Below are positions 25,898 through 35,264 of a stretch of DNA of 64,000 nt, piece by piece; position 1 is the first letter of the stretch, and every line of letters begins with the position of its first letter. Source of the stretch: a bacterium (GTDB lineage Bacteria; Armatimonadota; Fimbriimonadia; Fimbriimonadales; Fimbriimonadaceae); NCBI GenBank assembly GCA_027485645.1, contig JAIXQR010000003.1, positions 310,001 to 374,000 of the forward strand, read 5' to 3'. The notes below the pieces were generated by a model. It had not been told where the DNA came from. It ran no database searches and worked only from the letters and a program-made list of their open reading frames with translations. A program made the position numbers and the translations under genes.

Positions 25898-28807
25898 ATG
25901 GGTGGAGTGAGTTTAGTGGCCCGATTGCATTTGTTTGGGCCACTACGGATTGAGCACGCTTCAGGCACGCTGTCTCGCTTTCCGACTCGCAGAAGCGCCC
26001 TGATTCTCGCCCGAGCGGCCACCGCCCGGGATCGCCGGATGGGGCGCGATGAACTGGCAGAAGAGCTATGGCCAGACGAATATCTCGATGTCACGCGGGT
26101 CCGGCTCCGCCAAGAACTTCGGCGATTGCGCGAGTCGCTGGGTGAGTTTGGGCATATCATCGAGGCGGACCGACAATGGGTGTCGCTCGTCACGTCGGGG
26201 ATCTCGGTTGACACTTTGGAGTTCGATGCGGCGATGCGCAATGCGTCGATTGCCGAAGAACCGGAGCGCCGAGTTCAGCAGTATGAGCTTGCGACCAAAC
26301 AAGTTAGCGGTCCATTTCTCGCCGGATACCTCGAACCTTGGACCTTGTCGGTTCGGCAGTCCTACGCAGAGCGGGTTCGTCAGGCATGGCTTGCCTTAGC
26401 CGAGGCCCAGGAGTCGAGCGGTCGCCTAGACGAGGCCATTGAGTCCACCCTTCAGGCCGTCCAGCATGATCCGCTGGACGAAGATTCGCAGCGCGCTTTG
26501 CTGCGACGGCTGGTCGCGAGAGGCAAGCATCCGAGAGCCCGCCAAGCCCTGCAAAACTACGACGAGCTGCTCCAGCGAGAGCTTGGTAGGCGGGCAAGTG
26601 ACGAGCTTCGCTCACTCCTAAAGGCGGTAGCGCCAGAGCGATCAGCGGCTCCGGTCAAGGAAGTTTCGGAGCCGGTCATGCGGCCTCCGACGACTTTTGG
26701 CCGAGAAGCAGAACTGACTACAGCGTTGTGGGCTCTCGCGAGCCCACAAGCGTGGGTCAACGTAGTAGGTCCGATTGGGATCGGAAAGTCTCACTTCGCC
26801 CGCGAGATCGCCTGGAACTTTCACCAACAAACCGGGTTGCCCGTCGCTTGTGAATTGGAACGTGACACTCCGCCCGGTTCTTTGCTGCTGAAGTTAGAGG
26901 AGTTCTCTCCGGAGCAACTCGGCCACGCGGCGGAATCGGCCCGACGGCTCGGTCATCGACTCCTAACGGTATCCCGCACAACTATGGATCGGGACGACAT
27001 GACTGCGGTGTATCTTGGCCCGTTGCCTATTCCGGGCCCGAGCCAATCCGCAGTGGAATTGCGGTCTTTCGCCTCGGTCCAGCTGTTGCTGTACGGAATG
27101 GATGCTTCCATCGTCGATGCGTTCACCGATTCCGATTGGTCGGCGATTCGAATGATCGTTCAGAAGCTTGACGGGTTGCCGCTGGCGCTCCGACTCTACG
27201 GAAGTCGGCTCCGCATCTTGACTCCCGGCGAGATTCTGCAGCAATGGGACAAGGGTTTCACCGAATGGGTGCTGCAAGGCGGCTCCGGAGCGAATCGCCA
27301 GCCTGGTTTAGAAGCGGCTTGGCTCGGAATCCGAGCGGATCTTTCTCCGGAACTTCGCATCGCCATGACCCGACTGTCGTTTCTGCCGAATGGCACAAAC
27401 CGACGTCTTGCTGAGGACATCCTTGGGCCAACGGCTCCTGATCTCCTGGAAGCGCTTGCGCGACGTTGCTTGTTGCAGGTGGAGGCGACTCCGGCGGGGC
27501 GGCGCTTCCGCGTTTTAGAGCCGATTCGGGCGGCGATCCGTGCCGCAGGCGACGCGTCGGAGCTTCAGACGGAAGAAGTGGCAGTCTTAGACGGTATCGC
27601 AAACTGGGCATACCGGCTAAGCCGAGAGCAGACCGGACCGGAGCAAGCCTCGGCGTTCCTCGAAATGTCAAAGGAGGCAGATCTGTTGGATTGGGCGCTT
27701 CGTCGAGCCAATCAGGTCTCGCCATCTATCGCGACCCGCTATGTCGTGGCAATTTGGCGATGGGGTTGTGCGCAAGGCAACGCCGCCAAATTGGTCGAAC
27801 CCGTCCGGACGGCGGTTCGACAGTCGACGGAGATTGGGACTCGCACATTTGGCGAAGCAGCCATGGGTCTCGCGCTGTTCCTTTCCCTTTTGCGCGAGGA
27901 TGCAGAAGCCGACGAAGCTTTCGAACGGGCAGAAAAAGCCTTCGCGGCAATCGAGGACGAGGTTGGAGTGGCATGGGTGCAGATGAACTGGTCTTCCCGG
28001 ACCCTCGCGTTCACAAATGCTGACCGCGCGATCGAAATGGCAAAGCAGGCGGCGGCCACCTTTGACCGATTCAACCGACCTAGCGACCGGGACCTCGCTC
28101 GGGCAGTCCTCAGCAGTCTTTTGTTGCAGAAGGGTGAGGTCGCGAGCGCGGTTCAGCTGGCCGAACAGGTCTTCGCGGCTCGATTGCGATCTCCGGATTT
28201 GGCCGAGATGTCACGCAGCTATGCCGATCTCGCGCGGATCTATCTTGGGGCGGGGCGCTCCGAGGCTGCACGTCCGCTCTTGCGGCAAGGCACCCAGCGC
28301 CTTCGCGAAATCGGCATTCAGGACTTCCTTTTCGGAGCGTTGATCGCCTACGCCGAGATCGAGCCTGGTGAGTTTGAGCCGTTGATGCAGGAAGCGGAGG
28401 AGATCGCGGTGCGAAGTGGTAATCGCAGTTTGCTGTGGGAGACCTACCGAGTTCGGGCGACCAATGCCAGCCGCACAGGTGATCTCGATGCATTCCGAAC
28501 GGCAATTTCTCAGTTGTTCTCCGCCTGCACGTCCCTCAGCGACCTGTTCCTGGCGGACGCGTTTGATTTATTTGCGGAGTTTGCCAAGGGCACCAATACG
28601 GAACTCGCCCTCGGCGCGGCGGCGGCGGCGAGTCACTGGAGAGGAAAAGAATCGAACGGGCCAGGGCACCCGGTGTGGTCCACCCTTTGGACCTGCGACT
28701 CGAAGGATATGGCGTGTGCGATGGCCAACGCAGCGGCAGAAGAATTTGCACGCGAACCGGCATTTGTCACGGAAATGTCCCGACGACTTGATAGCGTGGT
28801 GTCATGA
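25898..28807 (+). CDS. Large BTAD-domain transcriptional regulator with ATPase and TPR regions
   Basis: The 969-residue protein has an N-terminal winged-helix (about 1-90, RLHLFGPLRIE start), a bacterial transcriptional activator domain (about 95-250), a STAND-like ATPase (Walker A GPIGIGKSH near 290) and ~500 residues of helical TPR-like repeats. This is the architecture of SARP/AfsR and LuxR-LAL-like regulators, which bind DNA in response to a ligand or partner. ATG at 25898 is used; in-frame GTGs at 25907 and 25916 are alternatives. Its stop overlaps the globin start by 4 nt, so the globin is likely co-expressed. Codon use is more mixed (CGC, CGG) than in the operons around it. Confidence 0.9.
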   Translation: MGGVSLVARLHLFGPLRIEHASGTLSRFPTRRSALILARAATARDRRMGRDELAEELWPDEYLDVTRVRLRQELRRLRESLGEFGHIIEADRQWVSLVTSGISVDTLEFDAAMRNASIAEEPERRVQQYELATKQVSGPFLAGYLEPWTLSVRQSYAERVRQAWLALAEAQESSGRLDEAIESTLQAVQHDPLDEDSQRALLRRLVARGKHPRARQALQNYDELLQRELGRRASDELRSLLKAVAPERSAAPVKEVSEPVMRPPTTFGREAELTTALWALASPQAWVNVVGPIGIGKSHFAREIAWNFHQQTGLPVACELERDTPPGSLLLKLEEFSPEQLGHAAESARRLGHRLLTVSRTTMDRDDMTAVYLGPLPIPGPSQSAVELRSFASVQLLLYGMDASIVDAFTDSDWSAIRMIVQKLDGLPLALRLYGSRLRILTPGEILQQWDKGFTEWVLQGGSGANRQPGLEAAWLGIRADLSPELRIAMTRLSFLPNGTNRRLAEDILGPTAPDLLEALARRCLLQVEATPAGRRFRVLEPIRAAIRAAGDASELQTEEVAVLDGIANWAYRLSREQTGPEQASAFLEMSKEADLLDWALRRANQVSPSIATRYVVAIWRWGCAQGNAAKLVEPVRTAVRQSTEIGTRTFGEAAMGLALFLSLLREDAEADEAFERAEKAFAAIEDEVGVAWVQMNWSSRTLAFTNADRAIEMAKQAAATFDRFNRPSDRDLARAVLSSLLLQKGEVASAVQLAEQVFAARLRSPDLAEMSRSYADLARIYLGAGRSEAARPLLRQGTQRLREIGIQDFLFGALIAYAEIEPGEFEPLMQEAEEIAVRSGNRSLLWETYRVRATNASRTGDLDAFRTAISQLFSACTSLSDLFLADAFDLFAEFAKGTNTELALGAAAAASHWRGKESNGPGHPVWSTLWTCDSKDMACAMANAAAEEFAREPAFVTEMSRRLDSVVS

Positions 28808-29205
28808 CGTCGAACCAACTCAGTGACTTGAATCGATCCGTGACCCTACTAGGCGCACCGGAATCGAATTTTGCCGAGCGGTTCTATTCCGCCTTATTCA
28901 CCGCCCTGCCGGAAACGCGACCGATGTTCGGATCCGACATGTCGCGCCAAAAGGCTCGGCTGATGGAAATGCTCAGTTTCCTCGTGGAGCAGATTGAGCA
29001 TCCGGAAGTTCTTGAGCCGATGCTCTCGGGACTAGGAAAGCGGCACGAGGCTTACGGTGTGAAGCCCGAGCACTATGCGCCGATGGGGCAGGTTCTCTTG
29101 ACCGAGATGGCGCTTACGCTCGGCGAAAGCTGGACCCCCGAAGTAGAAACCGCCTGGAAGGCAGCCTTCCAGGCGATTGTTGATGGCATGGGCGTTGGTT
29201 CGTAA
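28804..29205 (+). CDS. Single-domain globin
   Basis: A 133-residue globin resembling the haem domain of flavohaemoglobins. The segment KRHEAYGVKPEHYAPMG places the proximal His at about residue 81, and the B/CD region contains FYSALF and a Tyr usable as distal residue. No FAD or NAD domain follows. It could bind oxygen or nitric oxide or act as a sensor. The ATGA overlap with the BTAD regulator suggests the two proteins work together. A small palindrome (CGCTCA-GGGT-TGAGCG, 29206-29221) follows the stop but has no T-run. Confidence 0.88.
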   Translation: MTSNQLSDLNRSVTLLGAPESNFAERFYSALFTALPETRPMFGSDMSRQKARLMEMLSFLVEQIEHPEVLEPMLSGLGKRHEAYGVKPEHYAPMGQVLLTEMALTLGESWTPEVETAWKAAFQAIVDGMGVGS

Positions 29206-31488: not shown

Positions 31489-31540
31489 TAAACGCTGGTC
31501 TTGACCACCTCACCAAGGAGGATTAGACTTTTGCGGACGC

Positions 31541-31557
31541 ATAACATTTTCTTAACA
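31541..31557 (+). promoter_or_regulatory. Pho-box-like tandem repeat before prepilin cassette 1
   Basis: ATAACA (31541-31546) and TTAACA (31552-31557) are separated by 5 bp. The same TTAACA-N5-TTAACA layout with an 11-bp period precedes the other two prepilin genes. It resembles the direct-repeat boxes bound by PhoB/PhoP-family response regulators, but the regulator is unknown. Confidence 0.5.
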
Positions 31558-31605
31558 AAATCGCGTCAAAATCCATTTGTTCGGTTCGAACGAAGAGCGC
31601 CAACC

Positions 31606-31745
31606 ATGAAAAAAGCATTCACTCTCATTGAGCTCCTCGTCGTGATCGCGATTATTGCGATTCTTGCGGCGATTCTATTCCCAGTGTTCGCGCAAGCGAA
31701 GGTCGCCGCGAAGAAGACCGCTGCGCTTTCGAACCAGAAGCAGAT
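31606..31745 (+). repeat. Conserved prepilin 5' segment, copy 1 of 3
   Basis: The first ~135 nt of the three prepilin genes (31606, 33006, 34314) are closely similar in DNA as well as protein, far beyond the rest of the genes. They could recombine with one another or reflect recent duplication. Confidence 0.7.
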
Positions 31746-32580
31746 TGGTCTTGGCATCATTCTCTACACCACGGATTACGATGACATGTATCCGCGAAAT
31801 GACGATTGCGTTGCTGGAAGCTCGCTGAACCCAGCGCTTAACCAGAACGACTTTCCGGCGAACGGAATTGGCGTCGGTTGCACCACCGGCAACTTCAAGT
31901 ACCGACGAAACGCGTTCTCTTGGCAGAAATGGGTCTTCCCATACATCAAGAACGTTCAGCTTTTTGAGCACCCGCTCCGCGTTAAGGACAGCACGAACTG
32001 GAACAACAACGGCCAGATCGTTGGTGGATTCGCGCTCAACACTTCTGTGACCGGACAGCTGGACACCTACAACCGAACGCCGACCTTCGCTCGACAGTTT
32101 CGAAACAGCTGGCTCGGTGGTTCCACCACCTCGGTCCCATCGCCATCCGAGACGTTAATCATGCTCGAAGTTCCAAACTCCGGTGTCCCAATGCTTCCGG
32201 GCGGATCGGTCGACTCCCAGGGCATCACCCCAACCGTCACGATCTACCCAGCTGCCATTCGGGAATTCTGGCGCTACAAGCTCATGAAGGGCACGATCGC
32301 CGACTGCATCGCTGGAACGAGCGGAACCGAGCCAGACTCGGCGAAGATCGCTTCGGGCGGCGTCACTGTCGGATTCACGGACGGAAGCGCGAAGTTCCTG
32401 AACGCAGGCAACTTCCTCGGCCGAACTCCGTCGAAGCTTGAGTACCTCGGCGTGACCGGAAGCCACACCGCAGGTTGGACCTTCCAGGACGATTGCCGGT
32501 ACCTCACTTCGGGCAATCTTGGCTTCGTGCAGCCAAACCTAAACATCAACTACCCAATGTGGGGATTGGTAGCTAACTAG
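31606..32580 (+). CDS. Prepilin-like DUF1559 protein, cassette 1
   Basis: The ATG at 31606 (324 residues) starts the type IV prepilin leader [15 protein letters not shown]; the longer frame from 31501 was rejected. The leader is only four residues, with Ala at the -1 position and Glu at +5. A 25-residue hydrophobic helix follows, then FPVFAQAK, then a beta-rich C-terminal DUF1559 domain with a late GGVTVGFTDGSAKFL motif. Proteins of this kind are processed by PilD and form pseudopili or surface structures. The first ~40 codons are nearly identical to those of the next two prepilin genes. Its stop overlaps a lipoprotein gene by one base. Confidence 0.9.
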   Translation: MKKAFTLIELLVVIAIIAILAAILFPVFAQAKVAAKKTAALSNQKQIGLGIILYTTDYDDMYPRNDDCVAGSSLNPALNQNDFPANGIGVGCTTGNFKYRRNAFSWQKWVFPYIKNVQLFEHPLRVKDSTNWNNNGQIVGGFALNTSVTGQLDTYNRTPTFARQFRNSWLGGSTTSVPSPSETLIMLEVPNSGVPMLPGGSVDSQGITPTVTIYPAAIREFWRYKLMKGTIADCIAGTSGTEPDSAKIASGGVTVGFTDGSAKFLNAGNFLGRTPSKLEYLGVTGSHTAGWTFQDDCRYLTSGNLGFVQPNLNINYPMWGLVAN

Positions 32581-32801
32581 TGAAGAAGCTTGCGCTTTTG
32601 CTTTTGGGCGCCATCGCCATCTGTAGCCTCGGTTGCGCGCCAACCGAGGTGACCGAAGCGGATTCGCAAAAGATGAAGCAGGAATTCTCGCAGGAGAACT
32701 ACGAGAAGGCGATGAAAGCGGCCGGAAAAGAGAAAGAGCTCGAAGAGCAGAAAGCTCGGGAAGCGGCTCGAAACGACGGTCAGGTCGAAGGGCAACAGTA
32801 A
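32580..32801 (+). CDS. Small lipoprotein, prepilin cassette 1
   Basis: A 73-residue protein with a signal peptide and lipobox (SLGC, Cys at about 19). The rest is a charged, Lys/Glu-rich helical tail likely to form a coiled coil. GTG start at 32580 shares one base with the prepilin stop, so translation is coupled. It may anchor or assist the prepilin partner at the membrane; this is inference from pairing only. No family was recognised. Confidence 0.75.
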   Translation: MKKLALLLLGAIAICSLGCAPTEVTEADSQKMKQEFSQENYEKAMKAAGKEKELEEQKAREAARNDGQVEGQQ

Positions 32802-32822
32802 GCTAATCGGCCGCAACGGCAA

Positions 32823-32858
32823 AGGGCGATCCCGGAGAAATCCGGGGTCGCCTTTTTT
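32823..32858 (+). terminator. Rho-independent terminator after cassette 1
   Basis: GGCGATCCCGGA pairs with TCCGGGGTCGCC across a GAAA loop (one wobble pair), then TTTTTT. It starts about 20 bp after the lipoprotein stop. Confidence 0.92.
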
Positions 32859-32912
32859 CTTTCGCCAGCAAAACTACGGTGTTATCAGATTCTTTCTCAA
32901 TCCTCAAGAAGC

Positions 32913-32929
32913 TTAAAACAATCTTAACA
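32913..32929 (+). promoter_or_regulatory. Pho-box-like tandem repeat before prepilin cassette 2
   Basis: TTAAAA (32913-32918) and TTAACA (32924-32929) with a 5-bp spacer repeat the layout found before cassettes 1 and 3. The ATG is 76 bp downstream. The string TGTTGAGGTCG at 32961 recurs before cassette 3. Confidence 0.5.
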
Positions 32930-33005
32930 AAGTGTTCCTAAACTCGCGTTGGACGGTGGGTGTTGAGGTCGTTCGGGATTTTGTGCACCTGCAGGAATCG
33001 ACATC

Positions 33006-33980
33006 ATGAAAAAGGCATTTACCCTGATTGAGCTCCTCGTCGTCATCGCGATCATCGCGATTCTCGCGGCAATCCTGTTCCCAGTTTTCGCTCAAGCGAA
33101 AGCCGCCGCGAAGCGAACTTCTTCGCTCTCTAACCAGAAGCAGATCACGACCAGCATGTTCCTGTACACGAGCGACTACGATGACGTTTATGCTCGAAAC
33201 GACGAGTGCGTCCTCTTCAGCTCGCTCAACCCAGCCCTCAAGACCGCCGCACTCAACTCGGCGGCTGGTCAGGGATGCACTCCAGACGGATCGACTCAGT
33301 TTTACAACCGCTTGAACCACTTCAGCTGGCCAAAGTGGGTGATGCCTTACGTTAAGAACGTCGACATGTTCTTCAACCCAGTTAAGGGCCGACCAACGGG
33401 CGCAACTTTCGGTTGTCCAAACGGCGCGTGGGAGTCTTGCGGTCAGATGTTTGGCAGCTACGCCATCAACCTCGCAATCACCGGATCTTTGAACACCTAC
33501 GACGAAGCTGTCATCGGCGCTTCTTCGCGAATCTACCGAAACAGCTGGACCGGCGGAACGCAGACTGCGCTCGTGCAGCCAGCCGCTACCATGCTCTTCT
33601 GGGTCACTTCCAACCCAACCACGTCGGTTCTTCCTAACGGATTCCTCGACGCTGAGTTCACCAACCGAACCGCGACCGTTTATCCGGCCGTCGTTCGAGA
33701 GCACCTGATCAACGACCTTTACGACGGAACCAACGACGGAACGGTTGCCGGCAAGAGGATCATCGAAGGTCGAACGGAAAATGGTGGATTCACCATCGGT
33801 TACGCGGACGGACACGCGAAGTACCTCAAGGCTGAAGCCATGATCGGCGCAACGCCAACCATCGCTGAGTACTCGCCAGGAATGAGCTCGACGGCTGCCG
33901 GTCTCGCCGGTTCCACCCAGCGACTCGGCGCGGCGGTTAACCTGAACGTGAACTACCCACTTTGGGGCCTCGGACAGTGA
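33006..33980 (+). CDS. Prepilin-like DUF1559 protein, cassette 2
   Basis: A 324-residue protein with the same four-residue leader [15 protein letters not shown] helix and FPVFAQAK junction as its two neighbours, then a divergent DUF1559 body ending in a [18 protein letters not shown] motif. It belongs to the family of surface or pseudopilin-like proteins expanded in Armatimonadota and Planctomycetes. Nearly all Arg codons are CGA, suggesting high expression. Its stop codon overlaps the 50-residue lipoprotein at 33977 by four bases. Confidence 0.9.
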
Positions 33981-34129
33981 GAAAGCTTGCGATCTTTCTT
34001 GCGCTCGGAATTCTCGGCGCCGCTCTATTGAGCGGTTGCGGAGAACCGACCCAAAAGGAAGCGCAAGACTCTCAAGCCGCCATCGAAAAAGAACGAAAAG
34101 AAACCGGCGACGATAAGAACGCTTATTGA
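33977..34129 (+). CDS. Very small lipoprotein (50 aa), prepilin cassette 2
   Basis: GTG at 33977 overlaps the prepilin stop by 4 nt (GTGA). The ORF encodes [20 protein letters not shown] followed by the lipobox Cys at residue 21, then a 29-residue charged tail with Glu, Lys and Gln. It is too short for ordinary ORF cut-offs. Its position and layout match the lipoproteins of cassettes 1 and 3, which supports it being real. Confidence 0.78.
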
Positions 34130-34144
34130 GCCGAGATTTCAGCG

Positions 34145-34202
34145 AGGTGCGGATGACTTTGTCGTCCGCACCTGCCTTGTCCCCGTGCGCTCGATCACGG
34201 GG
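34145..34202 (+). terminator. Two successive hairpins after cassette 2
   Basis: AGGTGCGGATGAC (34145-34157) pairs with 34161-34173 around a TTT loop, with one wobble. A second stem CCCCGTG (34181-34187) pairs with CACGGGG (34196-34202). Neither is followed by a T-run, so they may be processing or stability elements rather than intrinsic terminators. Confidence 0.5.
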
Positions 34203-34235
34203 ATTTCGGAAAATCGTGAAATTATTGGCGAATTG

Positions 34236-34252
34236 TTAACAAAGTCTTAACA
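34236..34252 (+). promoter_or_regulatory. Pho-box-like tandem repeat before prepilin cassette 3
   Basis: The clearest of the three copies: TTAACA (34236-34241), 5-bp spacer, TTAACA (34247-34252), flanked so that each half also reads YTTAACAA. The 11-bp period equals one DNA turn. The ATG follows 61 bp later, after a TGTTGAGGTCG string shared with cassette 2. Confidence 0.55.
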
Positions 34253-34313
34253 ATTCGGACTCACAATTTTGTTGAGGTCGCGAAGCGGTAGTTTCGCATC
34301 CAGATTTAGACTC

Positions 34314-35264
34314 ATGAAAAAGGCATTTACCCTCATCGAGCTGCTCGTAGTTATCGCGATCATCGCGATTCTCGCAGCTATCCTTTTCCCAGTTTTCGCT
34401 CAGGCCAAGGCTGCTGCTAAGAAGACCGCTGCTCTCTCCAACCAGAAGCAGATCTCGACCAGCATGTTCCTGTACACGTCCGACTACGACGATATCTATC
34501 CTCGTAACGACGACTGCATCGCTCGATCCGCACTCAACCCAGCCCTCAACGCGGCTAGCTACACGCCATCAAACGGCGACGGTTGCTCGGGCGCTGGTCC
34601 ATACCCATACCGAATGAACCACTACTCTTGGCAGAAGTGGGTCTTGCCATACACCAAGAACGTTGGTCTCTTCGAGCACCCAGGCCGAACCAAGATTGAC
34701 GCCGGCACGCCACGACAGTGGAGCGACAACGGCCAGATCATGGGTGGCTTCGCGCTCAACCTCGGCATCACCGGTGCAGTAAACACCTACCTCCGATCGA
34801 ACACCGCGGCAGGACGACTTCGAAACTCCATCTTCGGTGGCAGCCAGAACGCGCTTCCAGCCGTTGCTGATGCAATGCTGTTGTTCGAATTCAGCAACCC
34901 GCTCACCAACTTCGCGCCAGTCGTTCTCCGAGCTGACCAGAGCTCTGCTTCCGAGCAGACCGTCTACCCAGCCGCTATCCGAGAATTCTGGGCTGCAAAC
35001 TTCTTCGTCACCGACGCCAGCTGCGTCAACACTGGACGAATTGACGCCAGCCGAGTCTTCGCCGAGAGCATCATCATCGGCTACGCTGACGGCCACGCGA
35101 AGAGCATCAAGCCACAGGCATTCCTTGGCAACACCCCAACCGCCGCTGAGTACGGTGTGACCCTCAACGCTTCGCAGCAGTGCGGAATTTCGAGCGGCAC
35201 CATCTCCGGTCAGCCAACTCCGATCACCAACATTAACTATCCGTTCTGGGGCCTCCAGAACTGA
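34314..35264 (+). CDS. Prepilin-like DUF1559 protein, cassette 3
   Basis: The ATG at 34314 (316 residues) is used because it begins the [11 protein letters not shown] leader; a TTG at 34269 would add 15 residues. The protein has the single N-terminal helix, FPVFAQAK and a DUF1559 body with [14 protein letters not shown]. Eleven of about twelve Arg codons are CGA. It is most similar to cassette 1 in its internal blocks (YPRNDDC, NHYSWQKWVLPY). It overlaps the next lipoprotein by one base. Confidence 0.9.
   Translation: MKKAFTLIELLVVIAIIAILAAILFPVFAQAKAAAKKTAALSNQKQISTSMFLYTSDYDDIYPRNDDCIARSALNPALNAASYTPSNGDGCSGAGPYPYRMNHYSWQKWVLPYTKNVGLFEHPGRTKIDAGTPRQWSDNGQIMGGFALNLGITGAVNTYLRSNTAAGRLRNSIFGGSQNALPAVADAMLLFEFSNPLTNFAPVVLRADQSSASEQTVYPAAIREFWAANFFVTDASCVNTGRIDASRVFAESIIIGYADGHAKSIKPQAFLGNTPTAAEYGVTLNASQQCGISSGTISGQPTPITNINYPFWGLQN

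Follow-up and report, generated by a model that had tools for sequence, protein, structure and literature searches.

Does a globin gene that overlaps the gene of a transcription factor encode a sensor for that factor, or simply a neighbour? The question is raised by a 64,000-nucleotide (nt) stretch of DNA, hereafter the window, from a bacterium of the family Fimbriimonadaceae, phylum Armatimonadota (assembly GCA_027485645.1, contig JAIXQR010000003.1, positions 310,001 to 374,000). On its plus strand, a 969-amino-acid (aa) BTAD (SARP/AfsR-like) regulator of the STAND type (25898..28807) is followed by a 133-aa single-domain globin of the HGbI/flavohaemoglobin-like kind, devoid of a reductase domain (28804..29205; Pfam PF00042, 1.1e-17). 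The two open reading frames (ORFs) share an ATGA (28804..28807), the start codon of the globin lying over the stop codon of the regulator. An earlier reading of the sequence alone had described exactly this arrangement, and both ORFs are present as it gave them; it had further proposed a gas- or redox-responsive pair, in which the globin feeds a signal to the regulator. An overlap of 4 nt is nothing unusual by itself; it is the repeated occurrence of the pair that goes beyond chance, and its conservation within the phylum is strong. Functional coupling of the globin to the STAND-like regulator is well supported by the genomic comparisons reported below, and we hold it probable that the globin is the protein partner and sensor of the regulator, and that sensing is usually haem-based.

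Recurrence of the pair in the phylum

The phylum was sampled through 291 genomes, the window genome being G000. A genome scan with PF00042 at 1e-5 identified 21 globins, and missed those of G002, G030, G057 and G172. Profiles built from the family itself raised the number to 25, one per genome, and two profile scans, the second allowing E values up to 0.01, agree on the same 25 genomes. The 25 loci were mapped by a simple ORF caller combined with sequence matches. Seventeen of the 25 globins adjoin a regulator of the family of the window regulator. The pairing is thus kept well beyond the window genome, and the notion that it might be a peculiarity of this genome clearly fails. The regulator comes first in G000, G014, G100 and G011, where overlaps measure 4, 4, 4 and 1 nt, respectively; the globin comes first in G163, G119, G120, G012 and G002; the two genes converge in the remaining eight genomes (G175, G173, G007, G006, G024, G030, G057 and G172), and overlap by 4-103 nt in seven of these. 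Divergent pairs were not found among the 17. Gaps within tandem pairs are approximate, start codons having been chosen by us. Because adjacency outlives changes of order and strand, the pairing cannot in general be ascribed to a shared promoter. The genomes G000, G014, G006 and G007 each have just one PF03704 match at 1e-5, and it adjoins the globin. Two regulators deserve a comment. The G011 protein (434 aa) shows AAA_16 and winged-helix similarity below cut-off and no Pfam BTAD match, and was counted for its homology to the window regulator (5.1e-39). The assembly of G007 is fragmented and 77% complete, and in-frame stops break up its regulator (L080:2785-5592); the part of this regulator closest to the globin gives no match when taken alone, and the reading frame of the neighbouring globin is open.

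Adjacency of this extent is hardly expected at random. A simple and generous model takes the PF03704 counts per genome, with a count of one entered for G011, assumes a density of 900 genes per Mb and allows chance an advantage of a factor of 1.5; it predicts about 0.08 adjacent pairs, against the 17 observed. As the pairs are related, the exact probability of 17 adjacencies means little; for five independent adjacencies the same model yields a probability of about 1e-8.

How many times the link arose or vanished was approached through trees. Globin-linked regulators fall in several places of a 37-regulator tree: one clade hosts those of G163, G024, G175, G002, G012, G007, G006, G173, G030 and G057, G000 and G014 form a pair with G011 near, and G100 goes with G119 and G120. 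Adding the regulator of G172 and one from a second phylum yields a group of ten linked regulators from which G163 is excluded, separates G100 from G119/G120, and lowers the support of several forks. Well-supported branches force at least four changes of the linked label in the 37-regulator tree, and two in the enlarged one. Both trees leave out L036, a duplicate entry of the G006 regulator, and a further, weak regulator from the same genome, and their non-linked rows are best matches rather than a census. Subclades of the globin tree match those of the regulator tree, but the globins of G012 and G002 join the unlinked globins of G181 and G182. Two trees restricted to the 17 pairs have 6 of 14 splits in common, and the distances within the two sets are correlated (0.455, reached in 2 of 5000 permutations; 0.509 in a 12-row subset, 18 of 5000). 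The agreement is moderate, and may in part reflect the species tree.

The pairs fall in a few clades and therefore do not represent 17 independent events. Moreover, no globin was found to accompany the five sister regulators of the window regulator, which shows that gain or loss of the link is possible. Both facts could be accommodated by linkage without function, due to chance, to shared ancestry of the region or to co-transfer. Such an explanation looks highly improbable in front of the forced label changes (at least four, or two in the enlarged tree), of the three layouts, of the figure for five independent adjacencies, and of the retention of partners that have lost their haem residues, to which we now turn.

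Partner globins and the haem pocket

Tyr B10, Phe CD1 and the proximal His F8 are kept in 43 of 46 aligned globins, and all three exceptions are regulator-linked. All three residues are hence found in 14 of the 17 partner globins, and are lost, partly or wholly, in the other three. The window globin belongs to the larger set. According to the alignment of the 46 sequences, its relevant residues, all on the plus strand, are Tyr28 (28885..28887), Phe42 (28927..28929), Gln49 (28948..28950) and His81, the proximal haem ligand (29044..29046), which we take to be positions B10, CD1, E7 and F8, respectively; His81 aligns with a histidine of the solved globins 3wfw, 3ubc and 3s1i. The linked globins of G007 and G024 carry Leu at E7.

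Two of the exceptions came to light through the regulators. The first regulator tree placed G030 and G057 within the linked clade, though the Pfam genome scan listed no globin there. In each of the two genomes, a profile made from the other 22 globins detected a globin convergent to, and overlapping, the regulator (5.5e-17 and 1.2e-18), and the expectation drawn from the position in the tree thus held. Both globins have Phe in place of the proximal His, Val in place of Tyr B10, and a gap at Phe CD1. They are globins nonetheless: the G030 protein, 150 aa in length, passes the Pfam globin cut-off when scanned by itself (27.1 against 22 bits); globin is its sole Pfam match, and no fusion to a STAS domain is present. 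The ratio of non-synonymous to synonymous substitution rates (dN/dS) between the G030 and G057 globins is 0.18, and 0.13 outside the overlap with the regulator; by this sequence measure the two are demonstrably under purifying selection. The third exception, in G172, was found by a 24-globin profile (6.9e-9), again convergent to a BTAD regulator. It has Glu at F8 and Leu at B10, keeps Phe CD1, contains no histidine from the first ATG onward, lies below Pfam recognition, and sits on a very long branch of the globin tree; being a single sequence, it does not lend itself to a test of selection. The globins lacking the proximal His beside BTAD regulators map to L091:2850-3302, L092:2910-3362 and L099:4539-5069, the last without any histidine. 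Replacements differ between them, and G030 and G057 nest among regulators with ordinary globins, which suggests that the usual haem residues have been lost at least twice among the partners. The search of regulator loci with the 22-globin profile covered 37 loci; as the flanks of many of them end before the adjoining gene, silence at the other loci was not used as evidence.

The haem pocket bears directly on what a partner could do. A gas- or redox-responsive pair, as the sequence-only reading had it, fits the 14 partners with an ordinary pocket, and is doubtful for the other three. The same division affects the possibility that the globin serves the regulator chemically, as a donor of haem or redox equivalents or as a local scavenger of gas, with no stable complex being formed. 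The 14 partners in which Tyr B10, Phe CD1 and His F8 are present, that of the window included, could operate in this way; service of this kind is unlikely for the three that lack these residues, and we regard the explanation as improbable.

The window genes and related globins elsewhere

The domain order of the window regulator (all features on the plus strand) appears to be that of a large SARP. A winged-helix DNA-binding region at residues 34-85 (25997..26152) matches Trans_reg_C at 9.2e-05 and 22.9 bits, under the curated cut-off of 26.2, yet in the right place and order. The BTAD domain follows at residues 107-244 (26216..26629; PF03704, 3.1e-12, 47.5 bits against a cut-off of 22.1), with a TPR_8 match within it (4.5e-06). 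Pattern scans located a Walker A P-loop, GPIGIGKS, at residues 291-298 (26768..26791), and a GxP-like GLPLA at residue 426. Between them, LLLKLEEF at residues 329-336 is Walker-B-like, its equivalence to the motif of other nucleotide-binding oligomerization domains (NODs) being judged by eye; it carries Glu in the place of the usual Asp, and ATP hydrolysis may for this reason be altered. Profiles of the NOD are weak (AAA_16, 16.5 bits against 32.6; NB-ARC, 12.2 against 23.5). The C-terminal region is TPR-like, with its best stretch at residues 738-803 (28109..28306; TPR_12, 2.7e-05, 24.7 bits, under the cut-off of 30.1). The globin scores 65.1 bits with PF00042 (cut-off 22), and matches the NCBIfam model of NO-inducible flavohemoprotein at 7.3e-18, with 64.7 bits against a cut-off of 432. 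It is not a flavohaemoglobin (Hmp), the FAD/NAD reductase domain being absent from the 133-aa chain, and does not pass the Protoglobin profile PF11563 (15.0 bits, cut-off 25). Its AlphaFold model has a predicted local distance difference test score (pLDDT) of 79.5 and resembles globins of the PDB. The regulator was modelled from an alignment of two sequences (window and L044), with a mean pLDDT of 43.2.

The window genome (3.19 Mb) has a single match to the window globin at 0.001 and a single PF03704 match at 1e-5, and the two adjoin. A Gfo/Idh/MocA-like oxidoreductase is encoded on the same strand 35 nt upstream of the regulator, and is preceded at 9 nt by a YegS-type lipid kinase, also on the same strand. 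No reductase gene was found beside the pair among the neighbours scanned. Both genes and the 4-nt overlap are retained in the sister genome G014, where the globin is 91% identical (dN/dS about 0.04) and the regulator 81% identical (about 0.05), both ratios being rough, with synonymous changes near saturation. The oxidoreductase adjoins the pair in G014 as well (94.5% identity). As a conserved context it was dropped, since the Gfo/Idh/MocA protein encoded next to the related regulator of G013 shares no more than 24% identity with that of the window, over 157 aa. Elsewhere in the window (31501-35264), three pilin-like ORFs in a row, presumably of the DUF1559 type, have near-identical N-termini.

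Globins of this group have been found next to signalling genes also in other settings. Within the phylum of the window, G148 has a single-domain globin gene placed between cheA and cheW, with a PAS methyl-accepting chemotaxis protein encoded next (L067:3889-9457); in G146 (L068:4856-7902) the globin is flanked by cheA and cheW as well, and an 836-aa ORF comes next in the row. The free globin may possibly act there as an aerotaxis detector. Another phylum, that of G349, contributed 24 globins in 19 of 181 sampled genomes; 20 stretches carrying 21 globins were read, G430, G455 and G464 being left out. G457, which carries five globins, hosts the same pair as the window: a globin comes after a BTAD-AAA_16-TPR regulator of 1120 aa (L109). 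In four genomes of one genus (L101, L102, L103 and L119) the globin converges on a PAS-GGDEF-EAL protein with a 4-nt overlap. At L116:5980-12399 a globin lies on either side of two STAND-like proteins, of 811 and 812 aa, that are encoded in tandem, one globin being divergent and the other convergent; the first STAND-like protein, the one scanned, is of the HTH-NB-ARC-TPR type, and the divergent globin lies about 400 nt away. In G431 (L118:1187-7592) an AAA_16-TPR protein is followed by a large pyridine-nucleotide oxidoreductase with a 2Fe-2S match and, as last gene, by a globin, a possible case of a globin with its own reductase. The other 13 of the 21 globins were not seen beside such genes, most of their neighbours being unscanned.

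More distant searches were less fruitful. At the strict limit of 1e-15, 7 of the 199 genomes searched in the phylum of G341 contained 8 matches between them; every one lies in an open frame of 398-505 aa, and we read them as flavohaemoglobins. That of G388 gave none in 7 genomes, an empty result to be given no weight. A contig scan with the window globin as single query retrieved the sister genome only. As a small control, none of six plasmid-borne globins outside these phyla lies beside a BTAD gene; the six were picked from 30 shown of 147 records, two are longer than a bare globin, and gene tables were incomplete. One of these records, an Acuticoccus plasmid, has a LysR-type regulator flanked by two globins (L120:2061-3971).

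Regulators often control neighbouring genes, and the functional arrow may be drawn in the opposite sense. The BTAD-STAND protein would then sense through its own TPR region, and activate a neighbouring globin working as nitric oxide (NO) dioxygenase or O2-binding protein. That adjoining regulators commonly act on their neighbours is general knowledge; the window globin resembles the globin domain of flavohaemoglobins and has Tyr B10 and Gln E7; the row of AAA_16-TPR protein, oxidoreductase and globin in G431, and the L116 globin divergent from the HTH-NB-ARC-TPR gene, can be viewed in the same light. Other observations point elsewhere. None of the 17 pairs is divergent and eight are convergent, which is not the layout classically seen for a regulator and the promoter it controls; in three pairs the globin is devoid of the usual haem residues, two of these globins being under evident selection; and the window pair has no reductase gene among the neighbours scanned. 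We consider control of the globin by the regulator rather unlikely. The direction from globin to regulator is favoured over the reverse because the three paired globins that lost haem-binding residues stay paired. A partner role for the globin explains both this persistence and the eight convergent against zero divergent layouts. Of the signal flow put forward from the sequence alone, the coupling thus stands, upheld by 17 of 25 globins, three layouts and shared subclades, and the direction is favoured only.

A proposed split sensor and its precedents

According to the reading that we favour, the two genes would encode a split sensor and regulator, the globin being the dedicated partner of an AfsR-like STAND transcription factor. 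Most partner globins would bind haem, probably sensing O2, NO, carbon monoxide (CO) or the redox state; gas sensing by the window pair is likely. Contact of the globin, dependent on its ligand and most likely involving the NOD or TPR part of the regulator, would switch the latter from inactive to active or back, in a way comparable to the hold of MalY on MalT. Where the usual haem residues are gone, as in some lineages, the fold may act as a plain protein partner, as does the non-haem globin domain of RsbR. Physical contact, signal direction, ligand, haem binding or its absence, and target genes are all elements that we infer from sequence.

The components of such a system are known separately. 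AfsR is not known to have a globin partner; the window regulator appears to share its domain order, and has Glu at the Walker-B-like site. In a study on the Streptomyces protein, a large SARP, NOD and TPR are described as inhibitory, and ATP as relieving the inhibition (PMC10936776). MalY is not a globin, and MalT is not known to carry a BTAD domain. The likeness would reside in a STAND transcription factor placed under a separate protein: MalT is an activator held inactive by MalY (PMC10427625). HGbI of Methylacidiphilum (3s1i; 3ubc) is not known to have a regulator partner. Like the window globin it is single-domain, with sequence matches of 8.2e-16 and 9.3e-16, and the window model superposes on 3s1i with a template-modelling (TM) score of 0.78. 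The best match of the window globin among solved sequences is HGbRL (3wfw, 7.2e-17), the overlap of model and structure being poor (TM 0.43-0.45). HGbRL of Methylacidiphilum infernorum (3wfw/3wfx), a globin fused to a Roadblock/LC7 domain, is presented in PMC4476040 as a putative globin-coupled sensor and as a site-swapped dimer. As the favoured reading has it for the window pair, a related globin is joined to a signalling module; HGbRL is, however, a single fused chain with another partner domain, whereas the window has two genes and a transcription factor. Globin-coupled sensors of the HemAT type employ a globin as sensory module; they are covalent fusions (PMC4476040), in contrast to the bare domain and separate ORF of the window. 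RsbR of the stressosome, again as outlined there, has a non-haem globin domain: the proximal His is gone, and the fold still serves signalling. The G030, G057 and G172 globins resemble it in this loss, selection being seen for G030 and G057 and not pertaining to the window gene; RsbR is fused to a STAS domain, whereas these globins are separate genes beside a transcription factor. A description of globin-BTAD regulator pairs was not found in the literature searched, from which subscription papers were mostly excluded; the one paper retrieved for globin and BTAD domain together is a survey of nucleotide cyclases, and a search for globins in Armatimonadetes led to a preprint on a haem-PAS regulator of Fimbriimonas. 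The parts exemplified by MalY-MalT, AfsR, HGbRL and RsbR are on record, and their two-gene combination with a BTAD regulator was not found in print.

Several observations weigh against a partnership of globin and regulator. Eight of the 25 globins have no such neighbour (G033, G059, G146, G148, G034, G181, G182 and G070); PF03704 matches at 1e-5 are lacking in the genomes of G034, G181, G182 and G070, and some are present in those of G033, G059, G146 and G148. The closest relatives of the window regulator (G013, G005, G004, G019 and G008), 34-36% identical over nearly the full length, come from genomes in which no globin was found, so that the link has been gained or lost in this branch. More generally, of the 21 non-linked regulators placed in the tree, 19 belong to globin-free genomes, for which reason the tree cannot tell the loss of a partner from never having had one. 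Among the loci read no globin-regulator fusion occurs, the 17 pairs being all made of separate ORFs, and the phylum of G349 gives one such pair among the 21 globins read. The globins of G030 and G057 keep other histidines, and may bind haem through another ligand. The regulator model (pLDDT 43) is too poor to seek a docking site for the globin. Neighbours can be linked by regulation alone, and the arguments for a partner are drawn from sequence.

A broader proposal is advanced tentatively. Free globins of this group may be detector subunits of STAND factors in a two-gene sensory system in which the globin fold, rather than haem, is the conserved feature; haem sensing would have disappeared on two or more occasions, with the protein switch retained, and the same group of globins would be a general plug-in, used also by chemotaxis and cyclic-di-GMP proteins. 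The inducers of many bacterial AfsR/MalT-type STAND regulators are unknown, and the function of free single-domain bacterial globins is often unproven. If the reading favoured here is true, a neighbouring globin would provide one AfsR/MalT-type STAND regulator with a defined, spectroscopically visible input, and one group of free single-domain globins would find a place in signal transduction. The partners without haem residues would allow a clean test of what evolution has kept, protein contact or haem chemistry.

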